Source: Branchiostoma floridae (Eukaryota > Chordata > Leptocardii > Amphioxiformes > Branchiostomatidae). From it: 64,000 nt of DNA. How positions within the stretch are numbered: position 1 is the stretch's first letter; every line of letters begins with the position of its first letter. This document shows positions 17,188 through 64,000 of the stretch, piece by piece. Position numbers and translations under genes: made by a program. The notes under the pieces were generated by a model. That model worked only from the letters and a program-made list of their open reading frames with translations, ran no database searches and had not been told where the DNA came from. The stretch spans positions 10,048,541-10,112,540 of the forward strand of contig NC_049990.1 in the NCBI RefSeq assembly GCF_000003815.2, in the 5' to 3' direction.

Positions 17188-17195
17188 TATAAAAG
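17188..17195 (+). promoter_or_regulatory. TATA box of the cytokine-like gene
   Basis: TATAAAAG lies 84 bp upstream of the ATG at 17272. A start site about 30 bp downstream would leave a short 5' UTR. The upstream in-frame extension of the ORF has no ATG and overlaps the TATA box, supporting 17272 as the start. Confidence 0.65.
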
Positions 17196-17271: not shown

Positions 17272-19412
17272 ATGGAGGGTTTTGTTCACCTGTACATGAT
17301 CGTACTGATGTGCGGTACATGCACTCTACCCGACCCTGCCGCCGCTGTCCCCGTCATACGCCATTCGGATCCTGCCGCACATCTGCCAGACTCTATCGCC
17401 GCTGCACCTGCCGCACATCTGCCAGACTCTATCGCCGCTGCACCTATCGCACGTCTGCAGGACCCTGCCGCCGCTGCACCTGTCGCACGTCTGCGGGACC
17501 CTGCCGCCGCTGCACCTGTCGCACGTCTGCAGGACCCTGCCGCCGCTGCACCTGTCGCACGTCTGTCGGACCCTATCGCCGCTCCTCAAGTAGCACATTT
17601 GCCGGACCCTACCGTCGCTGCCCCTGTCACACGCCTGCCGGACCTTTCCGCCGCTGTCCCTGTCACGCGTCTGCAGGACCCGACCGCACGTCTAGTTGCA
17701 CACGTGCCGCACACTACCGTCGCTGCCCCTGTCACACGTCTGCGGGACCTGCCGTACCCTGTCGCCGCTCCTCAAGCCACACGTCTGTTGGACCCTACCG
17801 CCGCTGCACCCGTCGCACGTCTTCCGAACCCTGCCGCCGCCGTCACACGCGTTCCGGACCCCGGCTTCCAGCAGCCGACGCTGGTCCAGGCCCTGACACA
17901 GAACATCCTCGGAACCAACTGGACCTTGGCGCTGACAGCGGAGGCAATCCGCGCTATGGTAGGGGACACTGTCAGCCAGTCATATTTGATCTCATGGCCT
18001 TTTGATATAATACGTAACGAATTGTGTACGACAAGTAAGGTGAGTTGATAGTAAATGTTACCGTAAAACAGGCACTTGTCTTCGTCGCAATAAAAGTGAG
18101 AACATGGCTAATGAATGTTGGTTTTTAGTATCAATACTTTTATGTAACATAATGTTTTTGTGCCTTCAGCGTGAAGTTCACTTCGGAGACCCACATTACG
18201 ACCCTGGCTTCGAGCAGCCGGCTTGGGCAAACATCACAGTCACTGCTGATGACGTGGGGAGTGGGAGATTGGAGGTTAGTCTACGTTTGAGTTTACTATT
18301 ATTTGAAAGGAAAAATGAGTATTTGCTGTGAAAGCCTCAGAGCATACAAATCGTTGTTCTTTTCCCCCGGCCATTTCATGATACCCCTGAGGCCTTGACT
18401 GTTTCTCTACTTGTGCTGGCAGGACTCTGAGATTCTAGACCGCATCTCGTCCCAACTTTACATCTACGAGCAGGAAGTGGGCGCCGTCAAGCAGGACGAG
18501 TTGACAATGATGACCAGTGACGCTGTGGAGGGGGGTGTCGCTCCCGAGGGGGGTGTCAGGAGGGTGTATCAGCTAGTCGTGCAGGTGTACGACAAGGCTG
18601 AGTACATGCGGAGACTTCTGGCCCGAACGGTAGGTCTGTTCAAGCTAGCAGGATGTAACAACCTCCTTGGACTTTGTTGTGTGTGTTTTTCTCTCATAAT
18701 TCGCGAATCAGTGATCAGTGGCCTCGAATGACGTAGTTGCTAGGCTAGTGGAGACGAAATTCTCTACAGGTCACGGGTTCGCTTCCTGGCATTGTTGGCC
18801 ACTAAAACGTTGTGTCCTTAACACAAATTTCCTCCATCCAGGTATAAAATGGGTACCTGTATTCGGTTAGGGATGAAAATGCTGTTGGGTTTGGCTTTAC
18901 CTTCCAATACCGTGCCATAGGCAGTGGATGCAACCCACTGCCCATACGGCGTCAAAAGGGCCAATGGGATTACGCTTTTAATTCACCAACTCCAAATTGG
19001 TCTGAAATAGCTTTTTTCGTAGATTCAGCCAATTATGTCTATATTACGAAATGCATAATATTTGACAGTTCAGTTCACCCTCATATGAGATGCCATTAAC
19101 AATGTCTAACCATGCATCTCTGGCTAGCAGATTGTAGTCCTTTGACAATCGTCTTCAATTTCACCCTAATCACAACAGGCCCATCTGATGGGACACGACG
19201 ACCTTGAGAATGGCCATGCCGCTGACCTTGACCCTGCCGAGCCCACAAGTGAGTACGAGAAGCAGCTCCGCGCTCTCCGAGTGTTCATGTCGTACCAGGC
19301 GTACCTGGGCCAGCTCCGCGGCGTGTTCGCAGCGCTCCTACAGCGGGAAGTCGCAACCACCGCCCGACTGGGTCCACCAACTTCACCCGGTCCGAGGAAC
19401 GCCAATGAGTAA
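17272..19412 (+). CDS. Putative secreted CNTF/CLCF1/cardiotrophin-like helical cytokine with N-terminal repeats
   Basis: Four exons, all phase-0 introns: 17272-18039, 18170-18274, 18423-18629 and 19179-19412, giving 437 residues. Residues 1-18 look like a signal peptide (MEGFVHLYMIVLMCGTC). Residues 20-197 are a Pro/Ala/Arg 12-residue tandem repeat (DPAAAAPVARLQ type). An N-glycosylation site NWT is at 215-217. Exon 2 has FGDPHYDPGFEQPAW, matching the GDPF-x-x-P-x-F-x-P loop after helix A in cardiotrophin-like cytokines. Exon 3 predicts two amphipathic helices. Exon 4 has EYEKQLRALRVFMSYQAY (about 385-402), resembling CNTF helix D. Phase-0 introns are usual in class I cytokine genes. IL-6-family cytokines act through gp130-type receptors and JAK-STAT. 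An alternative exon 1 donor at 17958 would drop residues 230-256. The family call is inference from recalled motifs. Confidence 0.6.
17329..17862 (+). repeat. 36-bp coding minisatellite in the cytokine-like gene
   Basis: About fifteen imperfect units encode a 12-residue motif of the form D-P-x-A-A-A-P-V-A-R-L-x; three consecutive units near residues 64-99 are almost identical. Outer units are diverged (PVTRLPDLSAAV, PQATRLLDPT). The tract separates the signal peptide from the helical domain. Confidence 0.85.
18730..18990. repeat. SINE-like dispersed repeat in cytokine intron 3
   Basis: A GGTCACGGGTTCGCTTCC box resembling a pol III B box is followed by a conserved-looking core (TCCTTAACACAAATTTCC, TATAAAATGGGTACCTG) of the kind seen in widely distributed animal SINEs. 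The ends are not defined. Confidence 0.45.
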
Positions 19413-21911: not shown

Positions 21912-23729
21912 TTAATAGTTTGTAAAGATAGTTATACTATCAAAGAGTCTATCCGTTACCAACAGCTGTCCATCGGGCCCTACCGTGGCAGTGCTAGGGA
22001 AAAAGAATCGCACCCCAGTATCCACCTGTCGGACAAACTCCCCGCGACGGGTGTACATCTCAACCCCGTTGTTTCCTCCGTTCACCACGATAAGATTTCC
22101 AGACCTGGTCAGGCAGATTCCAGTCACAGTATACCGAGAGTTATAAGTCCTGCCTTCAAATTTGAAGCGAAACCCAATCGAGGAATCAAAGACGTGGACG
22201 AAGCCACTAAGTGGGTGTACCGCAAAGATAGTCCCTTCCTTGTCCACAGTAAGGGACCCAAAACGACCCCTTTGCTCAGATTGGAACGTGTGCAATATGG
22301 TGCCGTCTTGCCGTAGAACTACGACCATGACCCGCTCATTGTACTGTCCTGCGATGATGACGTGGTTCCTCTGCCTGTCCATAGCGATGCCGCGGAACAG
22401 CAAGCCGGGTTTGATGGCCGAGAATCCGATTTCGATGCAGCCGTCTTCGGTGTACCGCACAATCCAATACGTGTTGGAGTCCGTCACCCCTACAACCCAT
22501 AGATACCCTTCATTGTCTATAGAAATATCGTATGGCTTCATTGTCACGTTTTTATTGCCAGGAACGACCGTAGGAAACTGCCGTAGGTGTACACCATTCA
22601 TATTGAAGACTTGGATACGCTTGTGACGCATGTCTGTGACGAAAATCTTGTTGCTAAGAGACACGACGATCCCGCCCGGAATTGTGAATTCACGAGTTCC
22701 TGCTCCCCCAAGCCTGAAGGTGAATCTGTAACCATGCTGTGCGGGAGGTACACTTTCGTCTCGTTCGTCAGCTGGTGGTTGAAAGCAATCTGATCCTTTA
22801 TTTGCTTCTAACCACAAGCCATCTTCTTCTATTCGTGTTGTGGGTGGCATGTTGGTAGTAGTTGTTGTTGGGAAAGCTATACTCGTTTGCACAGGAGTAG
22901 TAAACAGAATCTTGGTAGGTTTATATGACGACAAGTCCGGTAATGTTCCTGGAACTCCCATTGTTACTGATAGGTTTACAGTTGTTGGTGTCGCTTTGGG
23001 GAGAAAGTCTGTAGTTCCTTGCCTTTGCTGATGCCAGCTTTTGGCGCTTAACAGAAATGCAACTATCGTAATAAAAAGGATTGATATGACCACAGTTGTC
23101 CTGGCAACGCAACGTGAACTAACGCGACAGAGTTTGTCATATGTGGCCTTCTCTTCGTCTTTTATGTTATTCCTCCTGACGTAACTGTTCTTGTCATTTG
23201 AACACTTTGAAAGACTGATTCCTGTCGGTTCATCAACCTGTGTGGCTTGGTTGTCTTCGCCTTGCAGATCCTCATAGACATATTCTCGGCCCCATTCTGG
23301 ACTGACTGAGAAACTGGTTTCGGCAGTGGTGGCTCCCGGTCTGCGCCTTATGTCATTGACATCTCGTAATGGGAAACTGACAGGCTCTGGGACTTTGTAC
23401 ACATGTTCGGCGTTGTTGTGATGAGAAAGTGAATAGGAAATCGCATCTCCGGTGTAGGAAAAATCTGAGACTTGGAAACTGGCATCCTCTGCTTCCTCGT
23501 AAACATGCTCTGAGCGCTCACGGCGCGGTTGTGGCGGTGATTGTCTCAGTCGCCCACGGTGGGCATGCTGCGCAGGCAACACAACCACCTCTGGCTCTAT
23601 GTATACATGTTCAGAGATTTCAGAACATCGTAGCTGCCCTACTGGCTCTTCTAGTCGGTAACAGTCATCGTGGACTACTTCTTGGCCCAGATAGACGGGT
23701 GGTTCCTCATGAGAGATTTTGGTTGCCAT
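21912..23729 (-). CDS. Intronless type II membrane protein with NHL-repeat ectodomain and cytoplasmic Tyr motifs
   Basis: A single exon encodes 605 residues starting MATKISHEEPPVYLG. Residues 1-210 are hydrophilic and lack a signal peptide. They hold four similar tyrosine motifs: EHVYIEPE (Y43), EHVYEEAE (Y77), EHVYKVPE (Y111) and EYVYEDLQ (Y152). Residues 211-228 (TTVVISILFITIVAFLLS) form the only membrane helix, following basic residues, so a type II topology is likely. A Thr/Ser/Pro stalk leads to a C-terminal region (about 325-605) with NHL-type beta-propeller repeats such as PGGIVVSLSNKIFVTDM and TGICLTRSGNLIVVNGG, as in TRIM-NHL and related proteins. Y43 and Y111 fit Y-x-x-P (Crk-type SH2) and Y152 fits Y-x-x-L. 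Intronless structure suggests retroposition origin. Ligand and function are unknown. Confidence 0.85.
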   Translation of the reverse strand: MATKISHEEPPVYLGQEVVHDDCYRLEEPVGQLRCSEISEHVYIEPEVVVLPAQHAHRGRLRQSPPQPRRERSEHVYEEAEDASFQVSDFSYTGDAISYSLSHHNNAEHVYKVPEPVSFPLRDVNDIRRRPGATTAETSFSVSPEWGREYVYEDLQGEDNQATQVDEPTGISLSKCSNDKNSYVRRNNIKDEEKATYDKLCRVSSRCVARTTVVISILFITIVAFLLSAKSWHQQRQGTTDFLPKATPTTVNLSVTMGVPGTLPDLSSYKPTKILFTTPVQTSIAFPTTTTTNMPPTTRIEEDGLWLEANKGSDCFQPPADERDESVPPAQHGYRFTFRLGGAGTREFTIPGGIVVSLSNKIFVTDMRHKRIQVFNMNGVHLRQFPTVVPGNKNVTMKPYDISIDNEGYLWVVGVTDSNTYWIVRYTEDGCIEIGFSAIKPGLLFRGIAMDRQRNHVIIAGQYNERVMVVVLRQDGTILHTFQSEQRGRFGSLTVDKEGTIFAVHPLSGFVHVFDSSIGFRFKFEGRTYNSRYTVTGICLTRSGNLIVVNGGNNGVEMYTRRGEFVRQVDTGVRFFFPSTATVGPDGQLLVTDRLFDSITIFTNY

Positions 23730-26700
23730 CTTAGAACAACACCAAGGCCCACAGTGTGCGATACTGCAGAGGTAATCCTTGTACTGCCTGCTTGTTGCGG
23801 GAGGTACATGTGAATGTGATTATTGTCTGGAGCTTGCGGCAACGTCTAATAATAAGTTTCCGAGAAAGTAATGAATAGTAACAAGATAGTTGACCTTTGG
23901 GCAGATGTCAATTACTGCTTTTGATATTGTATAATATTGCTGTTGTGTTCTAAAATGATTTCGATAAATTTGAATTGACAATTGTCATAGATGCTAACAC
24001 ATAGTTACCATAGTTGCTGGCTTGATTCTGTGATCTGTTTGTCTTTGTTTTAAGAAAATCGTAAACGAAAAGCTGATGGAAAAGAAAGGGGTCTTATGTA
24101 AAAAGAAATTTGTATTTTAAGTACCATATTCCAATTATGTACCACACAGGAATAATGGCATGTTCGTGCTGATTATGTAATAAGATAATTATTATGCAAA
24201 TTAGGTTATGATTATTATAATCTATTCTAATTGATGGCCTTCACTTCCCAAGTTACATAACATGATTTTGTATATAGGGCTAGGGAAGTTCATCCTTTGG
24301 TAGAATTACTTATATATTTACATAATCTAGGCATTGAGATAATTAGCTTTAAGAAACTAACACATCGCGATCATTTACCGAATTTTACCGGAATTATATC
24401 ATCTTTGCATAAATGATGCAAATCATGTCTTATTTGCATATTTGGCATATGTTTATGCGCACATACTCACACGGCATGCGTACATACTCACACACGTGCA
24501 CACACACACAAAAAAAATACCTATTTTTTTTCTTAGAAGTAAACATAACCTTAACTTTGGCTAGAGTAGTTCTAGTGGTAATTACGAGAGTGAAGCAAGA
24601 ACCTGTCAATTATACAACTAAATAGAGGTCTAGAGCAGTTTTGAAGGCGTTCCAGGGTTATTATGCTGCAATATCCCAGAATCCCTACAGACAGTTAGAA
24701 AGATTCGAGCTTCTACATACATAACGTTAACGCAGAGTGACATGAACCACCTACTTGCCTTGTCATAATTGCTAGGCACAGTAGACAAACAGCTAATTTG
24801 TTTGTGGAGGTCCGTTAAAAATTTGTCTGCAGTTTGTAAGAGCAACAACCTCCATGGAGGTCATCTAAAAAGTTTCGCGCATACAGTCCGTATTGGCATT
24901 TTATTAAGGGAAGTTCATAATTGTGGCATTACGTGAAGGTGAACGTCGTTAAATATGAATTGGTCAGAAAAGGCTAATAAAAGCCTGTAAACTGTAATAC
25001 TTTGGACAACTCCTTTTATTTGAGTGGACTCGGAAGATGATCAAGCGATGCCATTTATGTAAATAAGGACCTAATTTGCATAATCAACGAGAACCACTCA
25101 TAGTACATCAATCGTAAAGATTCAAATCATTTTGTGAAGTAATGAGGTCCTCAAAATCTGTGGTACTATTAGTCTATCTTTTCATTCATATGCAAAAACA
25201 CGTATTCACCAATAAACGAAAAAAAAGCTGAAGGCTTCACCGAAGGCCAGTAATTTCCTTGTAGGAAATTGTGTCCGACAATAGACAATTTGGCGTACCA
25301 CGTGATCAATCATATAACGTCTTGCTGGAAAAGTCTAGAGGCCCGAGTCCTCATTCTGCTATCCGCAGCTGTGAAGAGAGGCGCGGCGGTACAGCAACCC
25401 AATTAGGCTTCTTCATAAGGTAAGCTAATTCTTAAAGATCAATCAACAACATTCGGAGACCTTTTGTGGGTTGCAGGGAGACAGATAGCATATGTGAGTA
25501 ATCACCTGTACAACCTTAATCAAGAAATAAAAGACAATAAGAGAAAATCGAATACACAGGGAGATGTGCTGGTCAAGAAAAAAACTGGCGCTGCGAACGA
25601 ATGAAAATTCAGGATGTACTAGGAAAATATCTTTCCACTCTGAGTTTCTACTAACGTTACAAGACAACAGTTGCAGTGGATACCTTAAGCTTGTGTCACA
25701 GTCGTGTTTGAATAGACATCACGAGTGATGACAGCATTTTAGTATCATATCATAGACACCTACCAGTCATACCGTGTGCATGGCACTTTGTACAAAATTG
25801 TTCTCTTCCATGGGGAGTTATTTAGTAAATAAGAAAAAGAATAAATGTATCTACATCTGTTATTTCGCACTTTTGAAACCACACTCTAAGCCACACTTTT
25901 TTACATGTGTACATTTTGTGAATTATGTATTTGTGTCAGGGTCTCATAATAAGTGGCGATATGGTACGGACATTGTTACACAGGTAGTGTCCCTTTACGT
26001 AAATGGCCAGAGGCTCAAATTGAGTCGCTAGACAATTACAGCCGTTCTTTTCATAACTGCGCCATCACAGGGAGTGTCAGACCACAGTGGTGGGCGCCAG
26101 ACTTCACCAGGCTTCGGTAAAACTTCTGTTTTAAAAGGTAATAGTAAGTGCTTATATTTTGTAAGGAATGTCTATACACTCTTAATCCAAGAGTCAATGT
26201 CTATGTGATGTTAAAATATATCATCTGTAGCTCGCTTAGAAAACGCGTTAAATGCGTTTAGGTTGTGACTGAAAAATATAATGGCTAAGCTTTTAGTCAG
26301 TTTTAGTATGAATCAACGAATTGAATTCCTCAAGTATCAATATAAAATGTCAATCATGAAGATGCCTTACTAAATCAACGTATGGGCATGTAGTCATACC
26401 TTACAACGCAATAAAATTCTACAACAAAACTTTGATTTAGAAAATGGATGCAAATTTTCCAGATTGAACATTTCTCTAGTTACTGCGCAGACAGTTCTCT
26501 CTTGATCTAATGTTAGTACATGCCGCTTTAAATTTGTTGTGTTTTCCCCGGTAGGGAATACTGTCGTTTTTGCTGACGTGTTCTTTTCTTTTCCTCTTTC
26601 TTCTCCTTATTTCATTCTGTCGGTTGTCAATCAGAGCTTTATAGGTTGGATATTAGCTGGTTAGCTGTTCGGCAAAGGTGAGAAATTGTGTAGTCAATCA

Positions 26701-27566
26701 GAGCTTAAGTTAGATATTAGCTGTTCAGCAAATTTGTTTTTTTTTTTACTCGGACAAAATACCATAGGGTGATTCTAATGTCATAGAATAATTGTGTTAA
26801 TGACTTGTACCAAAAACCCAGAAGATGTATTTTCTTAGTCGCATACAATACTATAGGGCAAGTCTAATGTTATAGTATTTTTTTTTTCTTTATTGAAATA
26901 CGTGTAAATATACAAATAAACGGACGAGGACAAAGTGAAGGCGGACTCAAGTTACATTCAACTTATATTAACGCCGCCAATGTTATAGTATTGTGCGCGA
27001 GTACCCTGACAAAAGGCAACGCCAACGGGGAAACATTGTGCATTTTCGCGAAAATGTTGCCTTTCTAGTTAGTAATTGTTTTTCTAAATATTGCAAAATA
27101 CTAGTAGTGTACTTTCTTTGTGACGTACTTTCTTTGTACATAAAGCATTTCTTTTGCATCGTCTAACAGCACGAGTACACCGACGAGGAAAAAAGTACAT
27201 TGTGGTGCAGAAGTGGCCCCAGAGCGAAATCACTCTCCAGTCAACTAGAGCCAGAACAGAAAAAAACACCGCATGTCTAGTAGGACATCTTAGCTCACTG
27301 GTAGTTTCATAGATTGATTGGAATAAGAAGTATTTGTGTGTGTGTTTTTTTTTCTCACCATAACACCCATTTCAGAATTGATTTGCGCAAGTGAAGTAGG
27401 GAAATAGCACACCGAATTACCATTCTTATAATTGAGCATACATTGATTATTTCATTAGAAAAATTAGTGCTACAAACAGGTACTACATAATTAGATTATT
27501 TGCCTACACCCAACAATTGTTACCCTAATCCACAATATCGTTTTCTGGCCAGTCAATCATTCCAAC
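23730..27566. other. Intergenic region between the two receptor genes
   Basis: It holds the promoter side of both the NHL gene (leftward) and the LRR gene (rightward). Contents are AT-rich unique DNA, a partial tandem duplication near 26630-26735 (TCAATCAGAGCTT and TTAGATATTAGCTG-like blocks repeated) and the retroposed insertion at 26880-26978. No further gene was supported. Confidence 0.5.
26866..26992 (-). mobile_element. Short retroposed sequence with 14-bp target duplication
   Basis: AATGTTATAGTATT occurs at 26866-26879 and again at 26979-26992. Between them is a 99-bp insert that, on the minus strand, ends with CAATAAAG followed by an A tract, the layout of a 5'-truncated LINE or processed transcript end. 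The parent was not identified. Confidence 0.75.
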
Positions 27567-29123
27567 ATGGTTTACCAAAACAGTGAAATACGACTTTTCA
27601 GATCGCCTCGATTGTTCGTAGGATTGCTTTTAATCCTTCTCCCTGTAAACATAGCAAAGGAATCGAAACAACTGCAACTCCAAAAATGTGAAGAGGCGAC
27701 AGGTTTTAATGATTTATTAACGATATCGTGTGACGGGAAAGGTTTGACGAGTGTACCTGAAGAATTGACGCCAAAATCTGTCTTTGAACTGGCGCTTCCC
27801 AACAACAAGCTAACTACCTTCCCATGTAAGGCCCTGCCCTATCTGCAAACGTTGAATCTAAGAAACAACAAAATCGCCTATTTCCCGTGGAAATGTCTGA
27901 AGAACATGGCACGTTTGGTGCATCTAGACCTGTCACATAACAAGATTTTCTGTGTCAACCTCTTCCCTGTAAAGTCACACTTACCGCGTTTGCGAAGGAT
28001 CGACATCTCTCACAACAACCTGACGACTTTGACTTTATGTGACATTGGAATTGGCCAGTCAAATACGGTATCATACGACGTTATACTAGGGGGAAACCCT
28101 TTTCACTGTGATTGTAAGATAGCTTGGATCGTGGATGTTGCGATTCATGTTGAAATGTGTCGATACGACAGATCCAAATCTTGTGTAGAGTTTTTTGACC
28201 GACTCTCTTTGGCAGTAGCAATGTACAATGATAAGTCTTTGTTCACCTGCAGTTCACCTCCCCAAATACAGGGGGCAGAGTTGAATCAATTAGACGTCTC
28301 TAAGTGCCTACATTTTGTAGACGAGACAGGACGAAATAGATCATATATACACCGGGATAACTGTTCTCCAGATCGTTCTTGCCCCAATGAAAGTACAGAT
28401 CTTTTCGCGCCGAACACCTTCGCTTCGCCCATATTGCCACCGAAAACCAGTAGTTCTGGCACATTTTCAACAACTAACGTTAGTGCACCACACAATGTGA
28501 TACAGGCTGAAATACATAATGAATCCCAAAGTGTGGCAGATACCCATAAAGGTATCATGAGCCCCAACCAGGCGCCCACTTCAACAGCAAAGTTTGAAGT
28601 GACCGAGGAGGTTGAAAAGGCGCATTTTGAACAAACTACAGGAAAAGCGAAAAGTGAGCCCTCTGTCGTGTCACAATTTATTGTAAAGACTCCACAGCCC
28701 AGTATTACAGCATCAGGTTGGACACTCACCATTGTTGGAATGATTGTTGGCGTGGCCGTTTTGGTCGGTGTTGCGCTCTTATTAGCTGTGTGCTTGGGTA
28801 TTCTTAGGAAGCGAGCCGGCAAAAATGTTTCCGGACAAGCTATGGCTCTCAATGGTCTAGCCAGTACCAGTCAAAACACACAGGCTAATAATTATAATGG
28901 CCAGGAGACATCTTGCAATGGCCTGAAATCAGACCCCGATTCCGACAACATGTATGAAGTTATTCCCGAAGACGCTGCATATGCTGCATCGTCGTATGTT
29001 TTCGACGTACCTCAGTACGATATGGTGGAGATTGAAAATAGTGGCGAAGTAGAAAAAGATGGTATCGGTAGTCACGATGAAATCGAGGACAGTGAAAATA
29101 TCTATGAAAATGGTAATCACTGA
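27567..29123 (+). CDS. Intronless LRR type I receptor with Tyr-rich cytoplasmic tail
   Basis: A single exon encodes 518 residues. A hydrophobic stretch at 15-30 (PRLFVGLLLILLPVNIA) fits a signal peptide. A Cys-containing N-cap (C41, C55) is followed by about four leucine-rich repeats (LQTLNLRNNKIAYFP, LVHLDLSHNKI, LRRIDISHNNLTTL) and an LRRCT cap (NPFHCDCKIAWI ... C198, C206, C228). A Ser/Thr-rich stalk runs to about 384. The membrane helix is 386-412. The tail contains NMYEVIPE (Y463), YVFDVP (Y477), YDMVEI (Y484) and NIYENG (Y513, a Y-x-N Grb2-type site). Such proteins are common in expanded amphioxus innate-receptor sets; no TIR or other known signalling domain is present. Function is unknown. 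Confidence 0.9.
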   Translation: MVYQNSEIRLFRSPRLFVGLLLILLPVNIAKESKQLQLQKCEEATGFNDLLTISCDGKGLTSVPEELTPKSVFELALPNNKLTTFPCKALPYLQTLNLRNNKIAYFPWKCLKNMARLVHLDLSHNKIFCVNLFPVKSHLPRLRRIDISHNNLTTLTLCDIGIGQSNTVSYDVILGGNPFHCDCKIAWIVDVAIHVEMCRYDRSKSCVEFFDRLSLAVAMYNDKSLFTCSSPPQIQGAELNQLDVSKCLHFVDETGRNRSYIHRDNCSPDRSCPNESTDLFAPNTFASPILPPKTSSSGTFSTTNVSAPHNVIQAEIHNESQSVADTHKGIMSPNQAPTSTAKFEVTEEVEKAHFEQTTGKAKSEPSVVSQFIVKTPQPSITASGWTLTIVGMIVGVAVLVGVALLLAVCLGILRKRAGKNVSGQAMALNGLASTSQNTQANNYNGQETSCNGLKSDPDSDNMYEVIPEDAAYAASSYVFDVPQYDMVEIENSGEVEKDGIGSHDEIEDSENIYENGNH

Positions 29124-32551: not shown

Positions 32552-35500
32552 TCACTTGAGTAGCATCTGAGCATTGTTGTACCCCTCCAGCTTTTCAAAA
32601 TGCTTCCTGGCATTTTTTATGTTTATCAACATGGCGGCTGAGGCTGTTGGGCAACAGGAAAATAATCTCAATGTAATGACTAGAAGCTGTAACTGGGACT
32701 CTTTAATGTGTTATACTGTAATACACATGAAAATGAGATGAAGGATACTTGAACTGTAATCTTTCATCTAAAAAGTCATTGTATTACACAACATAATGAT
32801 TTAATTGTAAACAGACAAAAGGATGTGATTGATACATACTTCAGAGTCTAAGTAACAGCAAAATGATCTGATAAGTTTTACATAAAACTATTAAAAGACA
32901 TGAAGTATTTATGATGTAAAAAGAGATGAACAGCCACGAAAACATTTCACCATTAACAGTTCAGTAGGACACATCAAACAGTAAAAAAACTGTATATTTG
33001 TAACATTGGAACGATGTTCCAGTTGCACATGTATAAAAGAATAATGGAATGAATGGATAAAGAAAGGAATACTCACGTATGCTTGTGTCGGACATGATGA
33101 CCATCACGTAGGTGTTAGATGTGAAGATGTCGATGAAGGCCGCAAACGCTGAGTTACGAACCTCCATGCTCTGGAACGAAGCTGCCAACTTGCTGCAGAT
33201 TTAACAAGAAATCAAAGATCTCCATGAAACAATTAGAGTTTTTGCAAATTTCTCCCTTTGTTCATTATTGTGAATTTCTAGAAAATTATGTCTAGGTATT
33301 TTCCTGCTTCCTTGTGAGATTTGGACTCAAGTCAAGCCTGCGGGAACAACTTTGGACCTGGGCCAAACCAGCCCTCCCCTCCTTTGATTAAGAATAGCAG
33401 GAACAAACATGCACACACCAAGACAAACAAACCAAAAACAATACCTTAGTTTTCATGGAGGTAACAATCAAACGTGGTCAGATATGTCTTAAACTGTAAA
33501 ACCCCATGAAACATGAATCTATGGACATCGTGGTTAGCTTTTTAGCTTGTAAATGTAGTAAGTTTTGTTGGAGAACTATTTGAACCTGAAATCTTACCTG
33601 CAACTCAACTTGAACTGCTTGATGATGTTGGAGATCTTCTCAAACCTGTGGACGTCTCTGTGTGGCTTCCTCTGACAGTGGGAGATAACCTGCACACACA
33701 GGGAAAGGGTTACTCAGCCTTGCACTGACAACTAAGAAACCTGTTCAGTTCTGTTCTTTCTGTGTTTTGAAAGGCTAAATGAAAAACAGGATGCCCTGCA
33801 TTTCAAGAACAAGCTGCTAAGGGACCCAAACTTTCATCAAGAGTTACCTGCCACTGAAAAATCAAGACCACAGAATGTCCAAGACTAAAGTTGCAGTACC
33901 AAGGTTAGACACCAGGAGGCCCAAATTTGACCTTGACCTTTTTGTCCACAACAAATACATCAGCCAAAACTATACTAACAACATACAGCAGCCACCCTAA
34001 TACAAAAGTTGTTTGGTGTTATGCTTTGGTCAGCATTTCACAAGGTACAAAGATAGATTGAAACATAATGCAAAATATCTTGCGCAAGCTGTTTCTTTCC
34101 ATAGCAAAAAAAGTTTCTATGTCAGTGGTATAGACTGTATGTTGTTTTTCTCATATCATGTACTCTTGCACTCTTTTGTTTTTTCCTTTTCTTAGTTTTG
34201 CAGCAGCTATAGAAGTAGCTCTGATCTCTGAAAGCACTGACCAGGAATGTAGCCCTCTCAAACAGCAGCACTTCATCTGCATCAATAACTTCTGCAAAGT
34301 TCCTCAGGTTGGTCTCCAGCTGTTCTACATTGGGAATCAGTTGGTACACAATACTGGACCAGGCCTGCAATGTACAACAGTCACAATAGTCAATGGTTAG
34401 AAATTACTGTACATGTAAGCAAGTACTTGCATGCAAGCTTGTTTAAACAGTAGGCAGTTGGTGAACTCCTACAATGTAGAACATACAGTTTATCAGGACT
34501 TTACAGGTGTTGACAGTAGATTACAAAGTTCTTCCCTACTATTAGATTCTTTCTATACTTAGTCTAACAAATCCTCAGCAGATTGGATATTGAAAACATG
34601 ACAATTCAAGGAAATGAAATATAACATTTTTTACAAAGTGCCAAGAAAAAAGAAAACAACTGACTTTTAAAAAATTAGCTTAAAAGAGTCTATGCTGGAA
34701 GATGCAGAAACTTGCCTTGTATAGTGTCTCATCCCATATTGATGTTCTGAAGCATGTGCAGTCCAGTGGTTTAGACAGACGTCTCAAGTCTTCTTCTCTT
34801 TCTCTGAAGATCTAATGAAAGGAAAGAAGATGAGTTACATACCAAAGTTTCCTCAAGGTGTCAATACATGGAGCAGTTGGTCTCACCATGTATCTATATC
34901 TAAAATATCAAATGTAACAGAATGTTCAGAATTTTTTCCTGCGCAGCAAAATTTGTCAGAATGACAGACCATAGACTTAAACTCCCAGCTACACACAATG
35001 TACACAAGATGAGACCTCACCAATTCCCTCTGGTCCTCCTGTACCAGGTCCATCTTGTGCACCAGACAGAAGATCTTGGCATCAGGCGAGTTCTGTAGGA
35101 TAGCCTCCAGACAGGACTGGTAGTAGTGCATGTCCTTCTCCAGCTCACGACTCTCCACATCAAACACGTAGATCAGGACCTCCACGTTACGGAAGATGTT
35201 GTCTCTCTGACTCGCAAAGTAGTTCTCCATAAACGCCTCCTGACTGTTGAGGGAAATATTGCAGGCACAAGTTTGACACCTGTTCATTCAAACATGTACA
35301 ACTTGAAATATATACATCTATTTTTTCTGAACAACTGTACTGGGGGAAGTTACATTGTTTGCACCAGACAAGTCAATTTGCCTGTACAAATTATGTTGGT
35401 AAAAATCATCCTTTCAAATCAAAGTTTGCCTGTAATTTCCAAGACAAAAATTAGACTTCAGTTGCAGAAAAAGTTACAACTACCCTTTAACAAAGATGGG

Positions 35501-38141: not shown

Positions 38142-39765
38142 GTTTGTTTGTTTGTTTGTTTGTTTATTAGGAATCTCCATTAGTTACATTGAACTATTCT
38201 TCCTGGAGTCCTTTACACACAATGAATAAAATACATAACAACAAATTATACAGATAATGTTGATCAGACAACTAGCATAAATCAATCATTAACATTCTTA
38301 ACTTATCATATTATGCAATACATTAAATTACTCATAACGTCAATCAATCAATTCATCATTATCCTCATTCAATTAACATAAACAAAAACATTATTATCAT
38401 ATCATATCATACATGTACATAATATTATCATATATTAGATATTGTGGAGGTCAGAGGTCATGAAATATACAGATGGGACATAGTCAAGTTTACCACCATG
38501 AGCTGATAGGTGAGTTTTTATGTCTTTGAGTTTTTGTCCAGGACCAGATTTTTACTTTGAATGCACGTGGATTTGAGGATGTAATGTGAATTGGTAGAGT
38601 GTTGTATGTTTTGATAGCTCTGTATAAGAAGGTTCGAGTAATGGCATTAGTTCTGGGTTTGGGTAGCAAGAATGCTCCTTTCTGTGCTAGTCTGGTGTTG
38701 TGAGAATGTGCGGTGTTAACTGTTTTTAAACGACTGAAAATGCATTTTGGCTGTTTTTCCTTTACAACTTTATGGAATATGTTGATAGTGCCTGTGAAAA
38801 GTCTTTCTTTTACTGAGGGCCAGTTTAACTGATTATGTAGTACGTCTAGGTTTGCGTCAAAACATGCACCTGTTGCCAGCCTAGCTGCTCTATTCTGGAT
38901 AACTTGCAGTTTGTCTAGGTGTGTCTGAGGCGATGAGGACGTGAGTACTAAGCCGTAATCTAGGTGAGATAGGACCAAGGTCTGTATCACAGTTTTCAAC
39001 AGGTTGGTAGTGAAGTATTCCTTATATTTCCTAATTGAAGCAAGAGCTCCTGCCATCTTCATCTTTGTTTTGTTTACTTGTAGAGCCCATGAGAGCTGCT
39101 GATCCACAGTGACACCTAGTAAGTCCGCCTGTTCCACCTGTGTAATGATTTTGCCTTCGATGGAAAGTTGTAGCTTCGGCTTCCTTTTTAGCCTATGTGG
39201 TGAACCCAAGACGATTGATTTTGTTTTGCCAATGTTGAGGATTAACTTGTTTGTCCTCACCCAATTCCATATCTTAGACAAGTCTGTCTGCAGCTTATTT
39301 TGTAATGCTGTAATGTCAGAAGCTGATGTGGATGGGGTGGAATCATCGGCATACATCACAACCACACTTTGGGTAGTTACCGTTGGCAGATCGTTTGTGA
39401 AAATACAGAAGAGAAGGGGACCGAGGCAGCTGCCTTGGGGTACGCCACATTTTGTTTCAATGAATGATGAGTAGCTTCCATTCACAAACACGGCCTGTTT
39501 CCTGTTTTCTAGGTAGCTTCTTGTCCAGTTTATGGCAGATTGTGTAAAGCCATAACTTTGTAATTTGGCCAGACAGATCTCATGATTGATAACATCAAAA
39601 GCAGCACTAAAATCTAACAAAACTGCTCCTACTAAGTTACCCTTGTCTATTTCTTCCAGCCAGTAGTCTGACATTTGTGTGAGCGCGCTAGAAGTGGAGT
39701 GGAAGCGCTTATACGCATGTTGATTACCGGAGAAAATATCATTTGAGTTGTTTGCCTAATTTCTG
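38142..39765 (-). mobile_element. 5'-truncated non-LTR retrotransposon (reverse transcriptase fragment)
   Basis: A minus-strand ORF at 39674-38490 encodes the C-terminal half of a LINE reverse transcriptase; in-frame similarity continues upstream to about 39760 (QHAYKRFHSTSSALT). RT motifs in order: VLLDFSAAFDVINH (motif A), CGVPQGSCLGPLLF (motif B) and VVMYADDSTP (motif C, YADD). A thumb and C-terminal region with LDYGLVLTSSSP and RAARLATG follows. No endonuclease domain remains. Downstream the element ends in a CAAA microsatellite (38142-38166 on the plus strand as TTTG), as in CR1/Jockey-like elements. It lacks its 5' half, so it cannot be autonomous. Confidence 0.93.
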
Positions 39766-58120: not shown

Positions 58121-58647
58121 TGAATGATCATTGTCGATGCTGGTATGTGACCTTGTTACTGCAGTAGAACTTCTGGTTTTGTACCCTTTGACCTGTGTTA
58201 TGTTATTTTTGACCTGTGTTATGTTATTGATATGTTATCCTTTGTCCTGTACTTTTCTTGTTGTTTTGGTGGCAGATTGTTTCTGATGTCAGTGAGAGGT
58301 GACATAGGTTTAGGCCCACTAGCAGCTTTTTCTGGGACTACAGAGGCCTTTTTTATAAAACATTTTGGAGGATAACTAAACAAAGGAACGACAAAGGGAT
58401 TATCTAATTGCCGCACTGCGGTCCCTCCTATTGTGTGCAATTGCATTGGGATTTGGGAGTCACACTCCCACCAACAGGGTTTTCACCTTTCCGGTCACTA
58501 AACAATATTGCACCACACTGACGGTAAACTTGTCGGACAACTCTGTCTGAAACAGCCATTTTCGGGCGGAGTGTTTTTGCAATATGGGATAATCATTATA
58601 TGGTTACTGAGTGCAGTACAACTTGTATTTGACTTTAATTTTTACGT
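58121..58647. other. 5' flank of the DIPK2-like gene
   Basis: Probable 5' UTR and promoter of the downstream gene, starting with a dispersed repeat fragment (TTACTGCAGTAGAACTTC) that recurs near 4305 and 60810. No other gene was seen. Confidence 0.4.
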
Positions 58648-59973
58648 TTGTTGGGGTATATGCCTCTCGTCATGAAAACCTCCTTGCGCTTGCATCGCAT
58701 TCTTCGGCACCACAGGTCATCGGGGGTCAACGTTTTCTTGTTACTAGTTTTGCTGATAGTTGTTTTTATCTACACTCTTCATATCAAACGTAGGGAACCT
58801 GTCAGCACAGCACTAAATGACTTCCGCTTTCTCTGGGCCGAGACAGGAACATGCCCTGCGTGTTTTGGACACACCTGTGGACTTATACAGCAGGGGAACT
58901 TCCGAAGGGTGAACCCTAACAGAGAGCAGAAGAGATGTGTGGTGTCCGTTGGTAGTATAGATGGAGATATGGTGATTGCTAAAGCTCTGAGTGAGGAGGA
59001 TGTATGGCGTAGATATGACAGTTTCATTTGTCGGACATCCCCACGCCCCGAGGCCTGCAATGCCTCGTCTTTCATACTGGAGTCCATGTATGTGACGGAC
59101 GCTGCTTTGAAATTGTCCTGGCTTTGGGAGGCTAGGAAGATTACCCATACGGAAAGGGCGGTTTCACCACTTTGTGTGTCAGCAAGGTTTCTGCAAGAAG
59201 TCAAACAGTTGTATGTTGAAAACGAAGGTACAGAACTGGAAAGAGTCGAACGCGCGTTTATGGCAACATCACTCCTCCTGGACCAAGAGGCGGTGATACT
59301 GCGATACTTCACCACAAAATCTGCAATCGTTTGGCCCTTTCCGAAGTACTACGGGGCTTGTGGGAGAGTGGTTGTGCTGCAACACGCTGGAAGGACACTC
59401 GATGCTTTTCTGGACTCCCCTTGGGAACACCGAGCAAACATTGCAGTACAGTTGTTACAAATAGTAGACACCCTTCGCGAAAAGGACCCCGACTGGATTT
59501 TGTTCTTTCTAGACGTATCTATGGAAGATTTCGCAGTCGACAGAAGCGGCAGGGTGCGACTGATCGACTTTGAAGACGTCATGGTGATTGATAGACAAAC
59601 GGTTGCCGATGAAGGGATAGAGGAGGGGTGCAACGAGCAGTGTTATATGAACTTCCAACAGGAACTAATGAGCGACTACTATCATTGTAAAGATATACTT
59701 AGGTACACCCAAATGATGTATGCCAACATTTGTGTTCGGATTTTATCCAACCGTCGAGAAAACGAAGAGAAAGCCGAGTCGGAAGAAAGAAGTGAAGAGA
59801 AAGGGGGACAAAGTGGGGAAGAAAAGCCTAATAAGCCCCAAAAAGGCCTTCTGTATGATCCTCCAGATGACATGAGAGAGTCGCTAGAGAGCGCACTTGG
59901 ACATTGTGTCCATGAGACACAGCCAGGGGGTCGACTGAAAGCAGTATTGACGCTAAAGGAAATCTTGAAGTGA
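58648..59973 (+). CDS. DIPK2-like divergent protein kinase, intronless
   Basis: A single exon encodes up to 441 residues; the start may be M1, M5 or M9. Residues 28-43 (NVFLLLVLLIVVFIYTL) form a signal anchor, so a type II Golgi/secretory-pathway protein is expected. Family blocks of DIPK2A/B (DIA1, C3orf58) are clear: CPACFGHTCG (69-78), MVIAKAL with the presumed ATP-site Lys112, ICRTSPRPEAC, WPFPKYYGACGRVVVL (229-244), a catalytic-loop-like FLDVSMEDFAV (287-297), the DFG-equivalent LIDFEDV (305-311) and GLLYDPP near the C-terminus. Cysteines match the extracellular-type fold. DIPK2 proteins belong to the FAM69/SELO-related kinase-like group in the secretory pathway; catalytic activity is not settled. 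Vertebrate homologues have introns, so this copy may be a retrocopy that stayed open. Confidence 0.88.
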   Translation: MLGYMPLVMKTSLRLHRILRHHRSSGVNVFLLLVLLIVVFIYTLHIKRREPVSTALNDFRFLWAETGTCPACFGHTCGLIQQGNFRRVNPNREQKRCVVSVGSIDGDMVIAKALSEEDVWRRYDSFICRTSPRPEACNASSFILESMYVTDAALKLSWLWEARKITHTERAVSPLCVSARFLQEVKQLYVENEGTELERVERAFMATSLLLDQEAVILRYFTTKSAIVWPFPKYYGACGRVVVLQHAGRTLDAFLDSPWEHRANIAVQLLQIVDTLREKDPDWILFFLDVSMEDFAVDRSGRVRLIDFEDVMVIDRQTVADEGIEEGCNEQCYMNFQQELMSDYYHCKDILRYTQMMYANICVRILSNRRENEEKAESEERSEEKGGQSGEEKPNKPQKGLLYDPPDDMRESLESALGHCVHETQPGGRLKAVLTLKEILK

Positions 59974-60845
59974 ATTTATGGTCTCATCGATGTATCACTC
60001 CGAGTGGGTACCCTAAAAGAGATCCGAGCCAAAAAATGAACGGCTGCACGGACGCATGTTTTTAGCTGCGAGAAATTCCCTTTTAGCCAGCGGAACTGAT
60101 CTCAAAAGTTAGATTGGTAAAGGCTTGTTTGTAACTGTAGAAATTAGCATGTAAAGGTTTGCAGCCGCGCGCTAGGTCGGAGGTACACAGTCGTGGGTTC
60201 TGATTGGTGCGGTTGTACAGTAGCAGCGAAAAAGTGCCTTTTGTGGGGATTGACTAATCGTAGTTTGTAATTGCTATAAAAAAAGTTCCTATGTATAGTT
60301 TACGTTGGCAATTTTTTCCCACCATATAGGGTAAATGTGCTCGACATAGAATGAAAAATCTGCTGAAATTTCACGTAGCTTCATTATAAACGCGCCCATT
60401 TACACCACGAATTATAACATAGAAGTCTATGGGAAGAAGAAACTCATCAATGAGACCTTATGATGCATCTATCACCACCCGAGGGAAAGGAAAATAACTT
60501 GCTGAAACAATAGTGTTATACATGTATTTTGAACGATTGTTTTAGAAATCTTCACTCCAGAAATGTATTGTTTTATTCGGATTCCTTTGCGTCGTACGTT
60601 AAAATTTATACTGGCATGTAAGATAATAAAGCTCATACATGAAAAATGGAGGCAAAGGTTTTTTTTGTGTGTGTCTGTCTGTCTGTATGTGTGCCCGGAT
60701 ATTTGTGGTCAGCATAACTTTAGAACTTCTGGATGGATTGTAATGATACTTGGTATGTGGGTAGGTGTTTGGAAAGGTCAATGTCGATTCTGGGCCCCCT
60801 TGTGTGTGACCTTGGTACTGCAGCAAAACTTCGAGTTTTTTTATC
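59974..60845. other. Intergenic DNA before the tandem array
   Basis: The 3' flank of the DIPK2-like gene is followed by a TG/TCTG-rich microsatellite (60661-60692) and a dispersed repeat (GGATTGTAATGATACTTGG, then GTACTGCAGCAAAACTTC) that runs straight into the 97-bp array. Confidence 0.5.
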
Positions 60846-62373
60846 TTTGGACCCCGAAAACTTTCCGCAGGTCCGCGCCTTTGCAAAAATGCCATTCTGG
60901 GCCCAAAACGGGCCATCTCGGCCGGTCTGGGGAAATTTCATTTTTGGACCCCGAAAACTTTCCGCAGGTCCGCGCCTTTGCAAAAATGCCATTCTGGGCC
61001 CAAAACGGGCCATCTCGGCCGGTCTGGGGAAATTTCATTTTTGGACCCCGAAAACTTTCCGCAGGTCCGCGCCTTTGCAAAAATGCCATTCTGGGCCCAA
61101 AACGGGCCGTCTCGGCCGGTCTGGGGAAATTTCATTTTTGGACCCCGAAAACTTTCCGCAGGTCCGCGCCTTTGCAAAAATGCCATTTTGGGCCCAAAAC
61201 GGGCCATCTCGGCCGGTCTGGGGAAATTTCATTTTTGGACCCCGAAAACTTTCCGCAGGTCCGCGCCTTTGCAAAAATGCCATTTTGGGCCCAAAACGGG
61301 CCATCTCGGCCGGTCTGGGGAAATTTCATTTTTGGACCCCGAAAACTTTCCGCAGGTCCGCGCCTTTGCAAAAATGCCATTTTGGGCCCAAAACGGGCCA
61401 TCTCGGCCGGTCTGGGGAAATTTCATTTTTGGACCCCGAAAACTTTCCGCAGGTCCGCGCCTTTGCAAAAATGCCATTTTGGGCCCAAAACGGGCCATCT
61501 CGGCCGGTCTGGGGAAATTTCATTTTTGGACCCCGAAAACTTTCCGCAGGTCCGCGCCTTTGCAAAAATGCCATTTTGGGCCCAAAACGGGCCATCTCGG
61601 CCGGTCTGGGGAAATTTCATTTTTGGACCCCGAAAACTTTCCGCAGGTCCGCCGCCTTTGCAAAAATGCCATTTTGGGCCCAAAACGGGCCATCTCGGCC
61701 GGTCTGGGGAAATTTCATTTTTGGACCCCGAAAACTTTCCGCAGGTCCGCGCCTTTGCAAAAATGCCATTTTGGGCCCAAAACGGGCCATCTCGGCCGGT
61801 CTGGGGAAATTTCATTTTTGGACCCCGAAAACTTTCCGCAGGTCCGCGCCTTTGCAAAAATGCCATTTTGGGCCCAAAACGGGCCATCTCGGCCGGTCTG
61901 GGGAAATTTCATTTTTGGACCCCGAAAACTTTCCGCAGGTCCGCGCCTTTGCAAAAATGCCATTTTGGGCCCAAAACGGGCCATCTCGGCCGGTCTGGGG
62001 AAATTTCATTTTTGGACCCCGAAAACTTTCCGCAGGTCCGCGCCTTTGCAAAAATGCCATTTTGGGCCCAAAACGGGCCATCTCGGCCGGTCTGGGGAAA
62101 TTTCATTTTTGGACCCCGAAAACTTTCCGCAGGTCCGCGCCTTTGCAAAAATGCCATTTTGGGCCCAAAACGGGCCATCTCGGCCGGTCTGGGGAAATTT
62201 CATTTTTGGACCCCGAAAACTTTCCGCAGGTCCGCGCCTTTGCAAAAATGCCATTTTGGGCCCAAAACGGGCCATCTCGGCCGGTCTGGGGAAATTTCAT
62301 TTTTGGACCCCGAAAACTTTCCGCAGGTCCGCGCCTTTGCAAAAATGCCATTTTGGGCCCAAAACGGGCCATT
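60846..62373. repeat. 97-bp tandem array, about 15.8 copies
   Basis: A GC-rich unit starting near TTTGGACCCCGAAAAC and containing GCAGGTCCGCGCCTTTGC and CATCTCGGCCGG is repeated almost without change. Early units have ATTCTGGGCCC, later ones ATTTTGGGCCC, so local homogenisation is visible. One unit (near 61650) has an extra base. As 97 is 1 mod 3, one reading frame passes through all three frames of the unit, giving long open frames of 472-632 codons that are not evidence of a gene. Confidence 0.97.
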
Positions 62374-63030: not shown

Positions 63031-64000
63031 CCGAGAAAGACTACATCACAATCTATTTGGGGACATATCCAAGACCAGTTTAAATGTACAAAGCATTTCA
63101 CATCGAGGATCTAATTCAAGACACGTTCAGCACTTGGCAAAACTATCACGTCACTTGAATGAACTGACTGGCAAAACAATAGATGTATATAACTGGAAGA
63201 ACCTGTTGACTACTAGTATTCTCCAAGCAGAGGTTCGGCTAAAGCTGTTTTCGACGCTTTTTTTTAGTCTTTCTTTTATCCAAGGTGGAAGACATGAAGA
63301 AAGTAGCACAAAATAGAAAGCCCGGGATTAAATAATGATATTCTATTGCAAGATCATACCAGTGGGCTAATTGCAAAGTAAGACAGTGGTATACAGAACA
63401 TGAACATGTCCTATTATTTAAATCTATGTCTATCTAAACTATCTGAGTGGTTTGACTTCTTTTTCGTATGCAATGGGGAATGAACTGTCCAACATTTCTG
63501 TATCTAAGCGGGTTGAGCGCATAGTAAAACGTCTAAAAACAAGGGCCGAGACTGGAGAGTATCTGTTGATCTTGTGTGTTAAATTGCTTTTTATTTGATG
63601 ATGGGGCCCCCGTAGGGGCTCACAAAAATTGCCATAGTGGACGGTATTTCACGTCCCCCAGGCGGGGTATTGGGAAAAGTTTTCAACTAGCAATAATCAC
63701 GCCTCGGTTGGACCTCATCGGCTATGATATCGCCTCTGCGCAAAGCTATCGATAAAAGGTCGATTCTCTGCCCGCCACTGGGGACAACGACATTGTGATT
63801 GTGGTCAACTTCAGTAACCAAAACGATTTTACGCTATATTTATATGTTAGGAAGGCTGGGACCTCTAACAATTTATCTATTAATTGAGAACCAACTTATT
63901 TATTAATTCATTTAGTCGTATACGCCTCAATGCCTATATCAATTAGATGTTACAATGATCAACTTGAACTCGTGTATATCAACTTCAAGGGTGAACCAAG
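63031..64000. other. Window end, no firm gene
   Basis: Mostly unique DNA. A possible short exon at 63759-63887 (after GATAAAAG) would encode GDNDIVIVVNFSNQNDF and end in TGA; the VIVVNFSN string resembles C-terminal strands of GH13-type enzymes, but this is weak. Confidence 0.3.

Follow-up and report, generated by a model that had tools for sequence, protein, structure and literature searches.

Does an invertebrate chordate carry a cytokine of the CNTF/CLCF1/cardiotrophin (CT-1) type? The question is raised by a predicted gene of the amphioxus Branchiostoma floridae, for which a sequence-only reading had proposed that identity from a signal peptide, four phase-0 exons, a cardiotrophin-like loop and a last-exon helix. 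The window analysed here is the whole stretch of 64,000 nucleotides at C12:10048541-10112540, and the genome searched comprised 513,431,437 bases in 431 contigs.

The predicted gene and the end of its first exon

To judge from its sequence, the C12 candidate is a real gene: its four phase-0 coding exons are bounded by consensus splice sites, and both a TATA box and a poly-A signal accompany them (Table 1). The exon structure claimed earlier held up, with the ATG at 17272, exons 2-4 as claimed, lengths in multiples of 3 and AG/GT borders. A hydrophobic N-terminal stretch read by eye as a signal peptide (MEGFVHLYMIVLMCGTC) is present and has a similar counterpart in the C9 paralogue, and the sequences quoted for the loop (GDPHYDPGFEQP) and for YEKQLRALRVFMSYQ are present as stated. 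Codon usage, scored with a model trained on three long frames within the window against non-coding sequence, is coding-like in exons 2-4 (0.41-0.43 bits per codon) and in exon 1 up to 17955 (0.37-0.50). The STAT-type palindrome that precedes the TATA box could be a chance occurrence.

Table 1. Predicted features of the C12 candidate gene (positions within the window)
Feature	Position	Strand	Basis or remark
STAT-type (GAS) palindrome TTCCTGGAA	17088..17096	.	Pattern match; 100 bases upstream of TATA box
TATA box TATAAAAG	17188..17195	+	Pattern match; 84 bases before ATG of the candidate
Exon 1 as preferred here, with putative signal peptide, repeat region and helix A; last residues TAEAIRAM	17272..17958	+	Frame, codon usage, donors, paralogue ends
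Degenerate tandem repeat, 36-bp unit x 12.9 (12 aa, e.g. PVARLPDPTAAA)	17371..17840	+	Between signal peptide and cytokine domain
81 bases VGDTVSQSYLISWPFDIIRNELCTTSK: exon-1 tail of the sequence-only reading, probably intron or alternative exon end	17959..18039	+	GC 0.41, 0.02 bits per codon
Exon 2: AB loop, REVHFGDPHYDPGFEQPAW...	18170..18274	+	Frame, multiple alignments; match to C9 exon 2 weak, z 1.4
Exon 3: helices B and C	18423..18629	+	38% identical stretch on C9, z 15.6
Exon 4: CD loop, helix D (SEYEKQLRALRVFMSYQAYLGQLRGVFAALL), stop	19179..19412	+	41% identical stretch on C9, z 15.2
Poly-A signal AATAAA	20119..20124	+	Pattern match

The first exon had originally been extended to 18039. 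Going by donor score alone, that site is the better one (AAG/GTGAGT, 8.27), as the in-phase donor at 17958/17959 (ATG/GTAGGG) scores 2.85, and the other two donors of the gene 3.54 and 3.80. Against this, the 81 bases that separate the two sites look non-coding, with a GC content of 41% versus 57-66% in the other exon pieces, and their best match to any C9 exon reaches z 1.5. The paralogues stop at the equivalent of 17958; for example, exon 1 of C9 stops at the matching residue, where QPTLVQALTQNILGTNWTLALTAEAIRAM and QQTVTEALTASLQKTELVLERTTTALGTI are equal in length (29). Because the tail is non-coding-like and poorly matched in C9, and because C9 exon 1 stops there, exon 1 probably ends at 17958 and the short form of 410 aa is preferred over the earlier long form of 437 aa, to whose numbering the domain boundaries ‘residues 198-437’ refer. 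Both donors may be in use.

Between signal peptide and cytokine domain, residues ~34-190 (~155 aa) consist of Pro/Ala/Asp-rich 12-residue units, which are absent from the C9 paralogue. This repeat likely expanded the N-terminus and would act as an extended spacer; we know of no vertebrate family member with such a spacer. The long degenerate repeat and the weakness of the preferred donor are what would be seen if the candidate were a decaying copy of the family, invaded by the repeat and not expressed, but the four open frames, the splice sites and the TATA box have been kept and codon usage outside the 81-base tail resembles the pattern in the window's other frames; we consider decay improbable.

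Elsewhere in the window, a single-frame protein-kinase domain of FAM69/DIPK type lies at 58639-59973 (+) and a U4 spliceosomal RNA at 63607-63747 (-; 121.6 bits). Long frames at 27495-29123 (+), 21912-23819 (-), 34883-35287 (-) and 38490-39755 (-) include LRR, NHL-repeat and RagA-type GTPase domains and one reverse-transcriptase frame. A 97-bp tandem repeat at 60839-62372 (15.8 copies, 99% alike) yields spurious long open frames.

A family of paralogues in the amphioxus genome

Searching the genome with the candidate returned C9 exons that follow one another in the expected order along a single strand (E 0.033 and 0.044). A search from C9 then reached C4 (E 0.18), from where additional genes came to light on C4 itself, C15 and C17. 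The family thus assembled has seven complete models, namely the C12 candidate, C9 (220 aa), four on C4 (C4a 208, C4b 206, C4c 205 and C4d 220 aa) and one on C15 (237 aa before its exon-4 start was shifted by eye), together with two partial loci, one on C17 and the other a tandem second copy on C15, each represented by exons 3-4. At C15:10353716-10357498 the family gene is accompanied by this second copy, in which exons 3-4 and a portion of intron 2 are nearly identical to its own, which suggests a recent partial duplication. Coiled coils of JIP proteins, the only PDB matches of the C9 protein (best E 0.034), were rejected as its identity and attributed to coiled-coil composition.

Membership of the candidate in this family is supported by several comparisons. 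The short form aligns locally with C9 at z 38, and the candidate alone matches the six other family members at P 1.1e-6, the best of 60 shuffles reaching 0.055. Candidate and C9 together match the other six at 96.8% (P 2.5e-10). Additionally, two motifs recur in C15 and the candidate, GFQQ just ahead of helix A and FGDPxY..PG within exon 2. All seven complete models follow the same phase-0 exon plan, helix A / AB loop (34-38 aa) / helices B-C / helix D, a uniformity that is partly built in, since the exon limits of the paralogues were set by eye in the expectation of a family member, and a scan admitting only phase-0 exons supplied the first two exons of C4d. Class I long-chain cytokine genes have phase-0 introns that cut them in the same way (A / AB loop / B-C / D). 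For vertebrates, this plan is found in the genes of IL-6, IL-11 and IL-27 p28, as in the candidate, whereas CNTF-type genes have fewer exons than its four.

Comparison with vertebrate cytokines

Profile searching had been proposed as a check on the CNTF-type identity, and its outcome depends on whether the candidate or its family is searched. On its own, the C12 candidate finds nothing convincing in Pfam or PDB; for the short form Pfam gives a single match, to Big_3_2, which at E 0.097 is not significant, and no rival family with clearly better scores came up. This null result is weak evidence, because human CLCF1, CNTF and LIF miss one another in the same PDB search, each finding only itself among cytokines. 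In Pfam, CLCF1 passes the PRF cut-off and barely passes that of CNTF, and a CT-1 fragment stays under every gathering score. The Pfam CNTF profile has 0 matches in the genome, as do the controls.

Pairwise alignment of the candidate is weak, giving z 2.9 with CLCF1, 2.0-2.3 with CT-1, 1.5-2.0 with CNTF and below 0 with LIF. The best plain alignments with CLCF1 and CNTF pair the wrong helices; globally, CNTF and LIF score under their shuffle means, and the CNTF score is reached by 50 of 70 decoys. A four-sequence vertebrate profile gives the candidate 4.2 bits, a score reached by none of 70 decoys and none of 500 shuffles (best shuffle 4.0), and the C9 paralogue 8.5 bits. In profile comparison with the CNTF type, the candidate alone is not significant (P 0.046) and candidate plus C9 reach 6.9% (P 0.005). 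The link of the candidate to vertebrate cytokines therefore runs through its paralogues.

Two family alignments were compared with PDB, A2 with eight sequences (C17 entered as exons 3-4 only, the second C15 copy left out) and A6 with six genes, without the C12 candidate and C9. Among 177,635 PDB sequences, with matches taken at E up to 10, CLCF1 comes first for A2 (E 0.011), followed by a designed coiled coil (0.028), IL-27 p28 in third and fourth place and a hypothetical protein, so that three of five matches are class I cytokines. For A6 all ten matches are: CLCF1 (0.00094), GH in second rank (0.083, five sequences), CNTF (0.22, two sequences) and IL-27 p28 (0.73, two sequences). Individual members were also compared with Pfam. 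At E up to 1, PRF is matched by two of eight (best 0.0073) and IL11 by two of eight (best 0.031), eleven further families, none of them cytokine or hormone, are matched by one member each, and C4c, C4d and C15 match no family; the sole match of C4a is PRF (E 0.0091). No match of any family member reaches a Pfam gathering score, which sets the family apart from CNTF (PDB 1cnt), CT-1 and the plethodontid receptivity factor (Pfam PRF).

Direct profile comparison with hhalign places A2 closest to the CNTF type, at 96.3% (P 1.8e-9, 169 columns), ahead of IL-6/IL-11 (59.6%), LIF/OSM (6.5%), G-CSF (4.2%), GH/PRL (2.3%, P 0.02), EPO/TPO (0.5%) and leptin (0.3%). The best of 150 column-shuffled targets gives P 0.043 and the reversed target P 0.47. 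Leaving out any one amphioxus gene keeps the CNTF-type value at 95.4-96.4%; on the target side it is 95.5% without CT-1, 95.7% without CNTF and 68.1% without CLCF1. Against single targets A2 gives 94.2% for CLCF1, 40.2% for CNTF and 9.1% for CT-1, and in these profiles CLCF1 clearly carries much of the CNTF-type signal. The CNTF-type profile holds three sequences and the rival profiles one or two, which favours the CNTF type, though CLCF1 singly still reaches 94.2%. As a yardstick, the vertebrate CNTF type itself gives 60.5% with LIF/OSM, 0.6% with IL-6/IL-11 and 0.1% with GH/PRL. In five of five overlapping groupings of the amphioxus genes, the CNTF type ranks top among seven families.

These results bear on whether the candidate could be an unrelated helical secreted protein, its motifs being due to chance and common helical composition. 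The lack of a convincing family match for the candidate itself, the mispaired helices and the global CNTF score under the shuffle mean would agree with that, but the paralogues with the same exon plan, the uniformly class I matches of A6 and the failure of the column-shuffled and reversed controls already largely refute it, and we regard it as very improbable. We are highly confident that the C12 candidate is a class I helical cytokine, and its nearest vertebrate kin is very likely CNTF/CLCF1 and not GH or a further cytokine branch. With nearly the same confidence, the candidate can be described as a secreted long-chain class I cytokine whose amphioxus family, with seven or more complete genes, has a common origin with the CNTF/CLCF1 branch of vertebrate gp130-type cytokines.

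When the candidate was aligned with CLCF1, CT-1, CNTF and LIF by MAFFT, unsupervised, GDPHYDPGFEQP came to stand under GDPFGLPSFSPP of CT-1 and GPPFNEPDFNPP of CLCF1. A pattern G-x-P-x3-P-x-F-x-x-P in the AB loop after helix A is found in the candidate (GDPHYDPGFEQP), CLCF1 and CT-1, and is absent from CNTF. The cardiotrophin-like GDP loop noted earlier was recovered in the candidate and in C15 (FGDPDYSHPG), but the C9 and C4 genes are without it. The site-3 motif FXXK at the start of helix D corresponds to F152 in CNTF, F178 in CLCF1 and F178 in LIF (PMC10022904). The same MAFFT alignment puts YEKQ of the candidate under this motif, and FXXK, by our reading of the alignment, is absent from the candidate. 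Across eight members the position is aromatic in six, and Lys at +3 occurs in none (Arg in C4d).

Human CLCF1 (PDB 8d7h), the top PDB match of the family profile, is colinear with the family across the helices but differs in its FXXK and is 11% identical in the profile alignment. IL-6, IL-11 and IL-27 p28 share the Pfam IL11 and PDB matches described above but show lower profile similarity (60%), and helix D of the candidate lacks Trp at the site-3 position. Because the candidate has YEKQ in place of FXXK, it is not filed as CNTF, CLCF1 or CT-1 proper, and because its family seems to include a published amphioxus hormone (below), it is not a one-to-one homologue of any of the three. As the sequence comparisons stand, the candidate is best placed among class I helical cytokines, within a family found in amphioxus. 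The CNTF/CLCF1/CT-1 identity claimed for it thus survives at the level of the family, whose profile is closest to CNTF/CLCF1, but is not borne out for the candidate alone.

Single-sequence AlphaFold models, both of the long form (pLDDT 44.0, pTM 0.40) and of the short form minus ten C-terminal residues (pLDDT 51.4, pTM 0.44), are too low in confidence to speak for or against a helical bundle; within that limit, helices B, C and D are long and placed as expected, while helix A is interrupted. In helical-moment plots, amphipathy is best at the start of B and in C, with little in D and none in A. The C12 protein would be cleaved after its signal peptide and secreted, and its helical domain would fold as an up-up-down-down four-helix bundle.

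The growth-hormone-like gene, candidate receptors and implications

According to PMC9010856, the amphioxus GH-like hormone GHl (KJ735508; Li et al. 2014) is a 208-aa type-I helical cytokine that was grouped with GH by phylogeny and is active in zebrafish assays. The existence of a growth-hormone axis before the vertebrates is argued from it, and the amphioxus genome is described there as containing several divergent relatives. The ghl primers P19/P20 (PMC5376476, Table 1) match C4c best among eight loci scored (19/25 and 18/23), the next-best locus having 17/25 and 16/23. By hand, they sit in frame in exons 3 and 4 of C4c, with LFLDEVL in both primer and exon 3, and PTDIT in the primer against PTDVT in exon 4. 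Because the primers match C4c best and read in frame, C4c and GHl are very probably orthologues, which makes GHl a member of the same amphioxus family as the C12 candidate, the comparison running through primers rather than through the GHl protein sequence. The modelled lengths of C4a-c (205-208 aa) are also like that of GHl. The candidate differs from C4c in being 16% identical to it in A2, in lacking its two Cys and in having the repeat region. The gene matching the published primers lies at C4:33808864-33811457, and its family looks nearer CLCF1/CNTF than GH/PRL by profile.

One alternative is that the family is nearest to GH/PRL, as published for GHl, and that its CLCF1 likeness reflects general class I ancestry. 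The phylogeny and zebrafish activity of GHl (PMC9010856) speak for it, as do the second rank of GH for the A6 profile and the 12.6 bits of GH1 with a six-gene profile, a score that none of 300 shuffles reaches. In addition, exons 2 and 4 of C4a-c carry a single Cys apiece, as a disulfide of GH type would require. The GH type has a disulfide from AB loop to helix D, with Cys in both. The cytokine domain of the candidate (short form), on the other hand, has no Cys, CLCF1 stands above GH in PDB with an E value ~90-fold lower (A6), the GH/PRL profile lies far behind the CNTF type in A2, and the CNTF type also leads in the grouping with the GHl-type genes (41.1% versus 0.4%). A position nearest to GH/PRL is thus unlikely, though the least unlikely of the alternatives weighed here. 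Since the family of the primer-matched gene looks nearer CLCF1/CNTF than GH/PRL at profile level, the classification of GHl as a growth hormone may need review.

For the sea squirt, a gp130-like class I receptor has been published (PMC1963337). In the amphioxus genome, Lep_receptor_Ig (PF06328) passes its cut-off at C7:19439200-19439397 (37.9 bits) and falls just under it at C7:20697186-20697380 (27.5 bits); the remaining 30 of 32 matches are below cut-off, most of them spanning the same positions by a 73-aa frame, in the manner of a repeat. The exon downstream of the first C7 Ig exon reads PEEPVLDRCLSENLDLFTCWW and scores 27.6 with EpoR_lig-bind against a cut-off of 27.3, LIFR_D4 and IL6Ra-bind being weaker. 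Against PDB, the first Ig exon matches titin best (2.2e-14), and also CRLF1 (E 0.0013) and the leptin receptor. No WSxWS exon was established. The intervals C7:19434600-19444500 and C7:20692500-20702400 thus hold Ig exons of gp130/leptin-receptor type, with a cytokine-receptor-module exon following in the first. Because the Ig exon passes the Lep_receptor_Ig cut-off and the next exon that of EpoR_lig-bind, a gene combining Ig and cytokine-receptor modules probably exists on C7.

We infer that this Ig-CRH gene could encode the receptor of the C12 ligand. Through its four-helix bundle the ligand would bring together a pair of class I receptor chains, both of Ig plus cytokine-receptor-module type, and the bridged receptors would activate JAK/STAT. 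That the C12 ligand acts through a gp130-like receptor is somewhat favoured.

Among the open-licence PMC matches listed, from queries that were not all on this point, none claims an amphioxus CLCF1/CNTF-like family. On balance it is fairly likely that amphioxus has a whole family of this kind, GHl included, which faces Ig-CRH receptors like gp130 and CRLF1, so that gp130-type signalling predates vertebrates and GHl is to be re-filed, the C12 gene being the member with a repeat-expanded spacer. Because the closest known relatives of the amphioxus family are CLCF1 and CNTF, which in vertebrates signal in the nervous and immune systems, a signal of the CNTF/CLCF1 kind is likely older than vertebrates. 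If a cephalochordate family has CLCF1 as its best profile match, the CNTF/CLCF1 branch would have arisen ahead of the genome duplications of vertebrates. Such a family offers a testable re-reading of GHl, and with it the question of how gp130 signalling began could be put to the test in a living animal.
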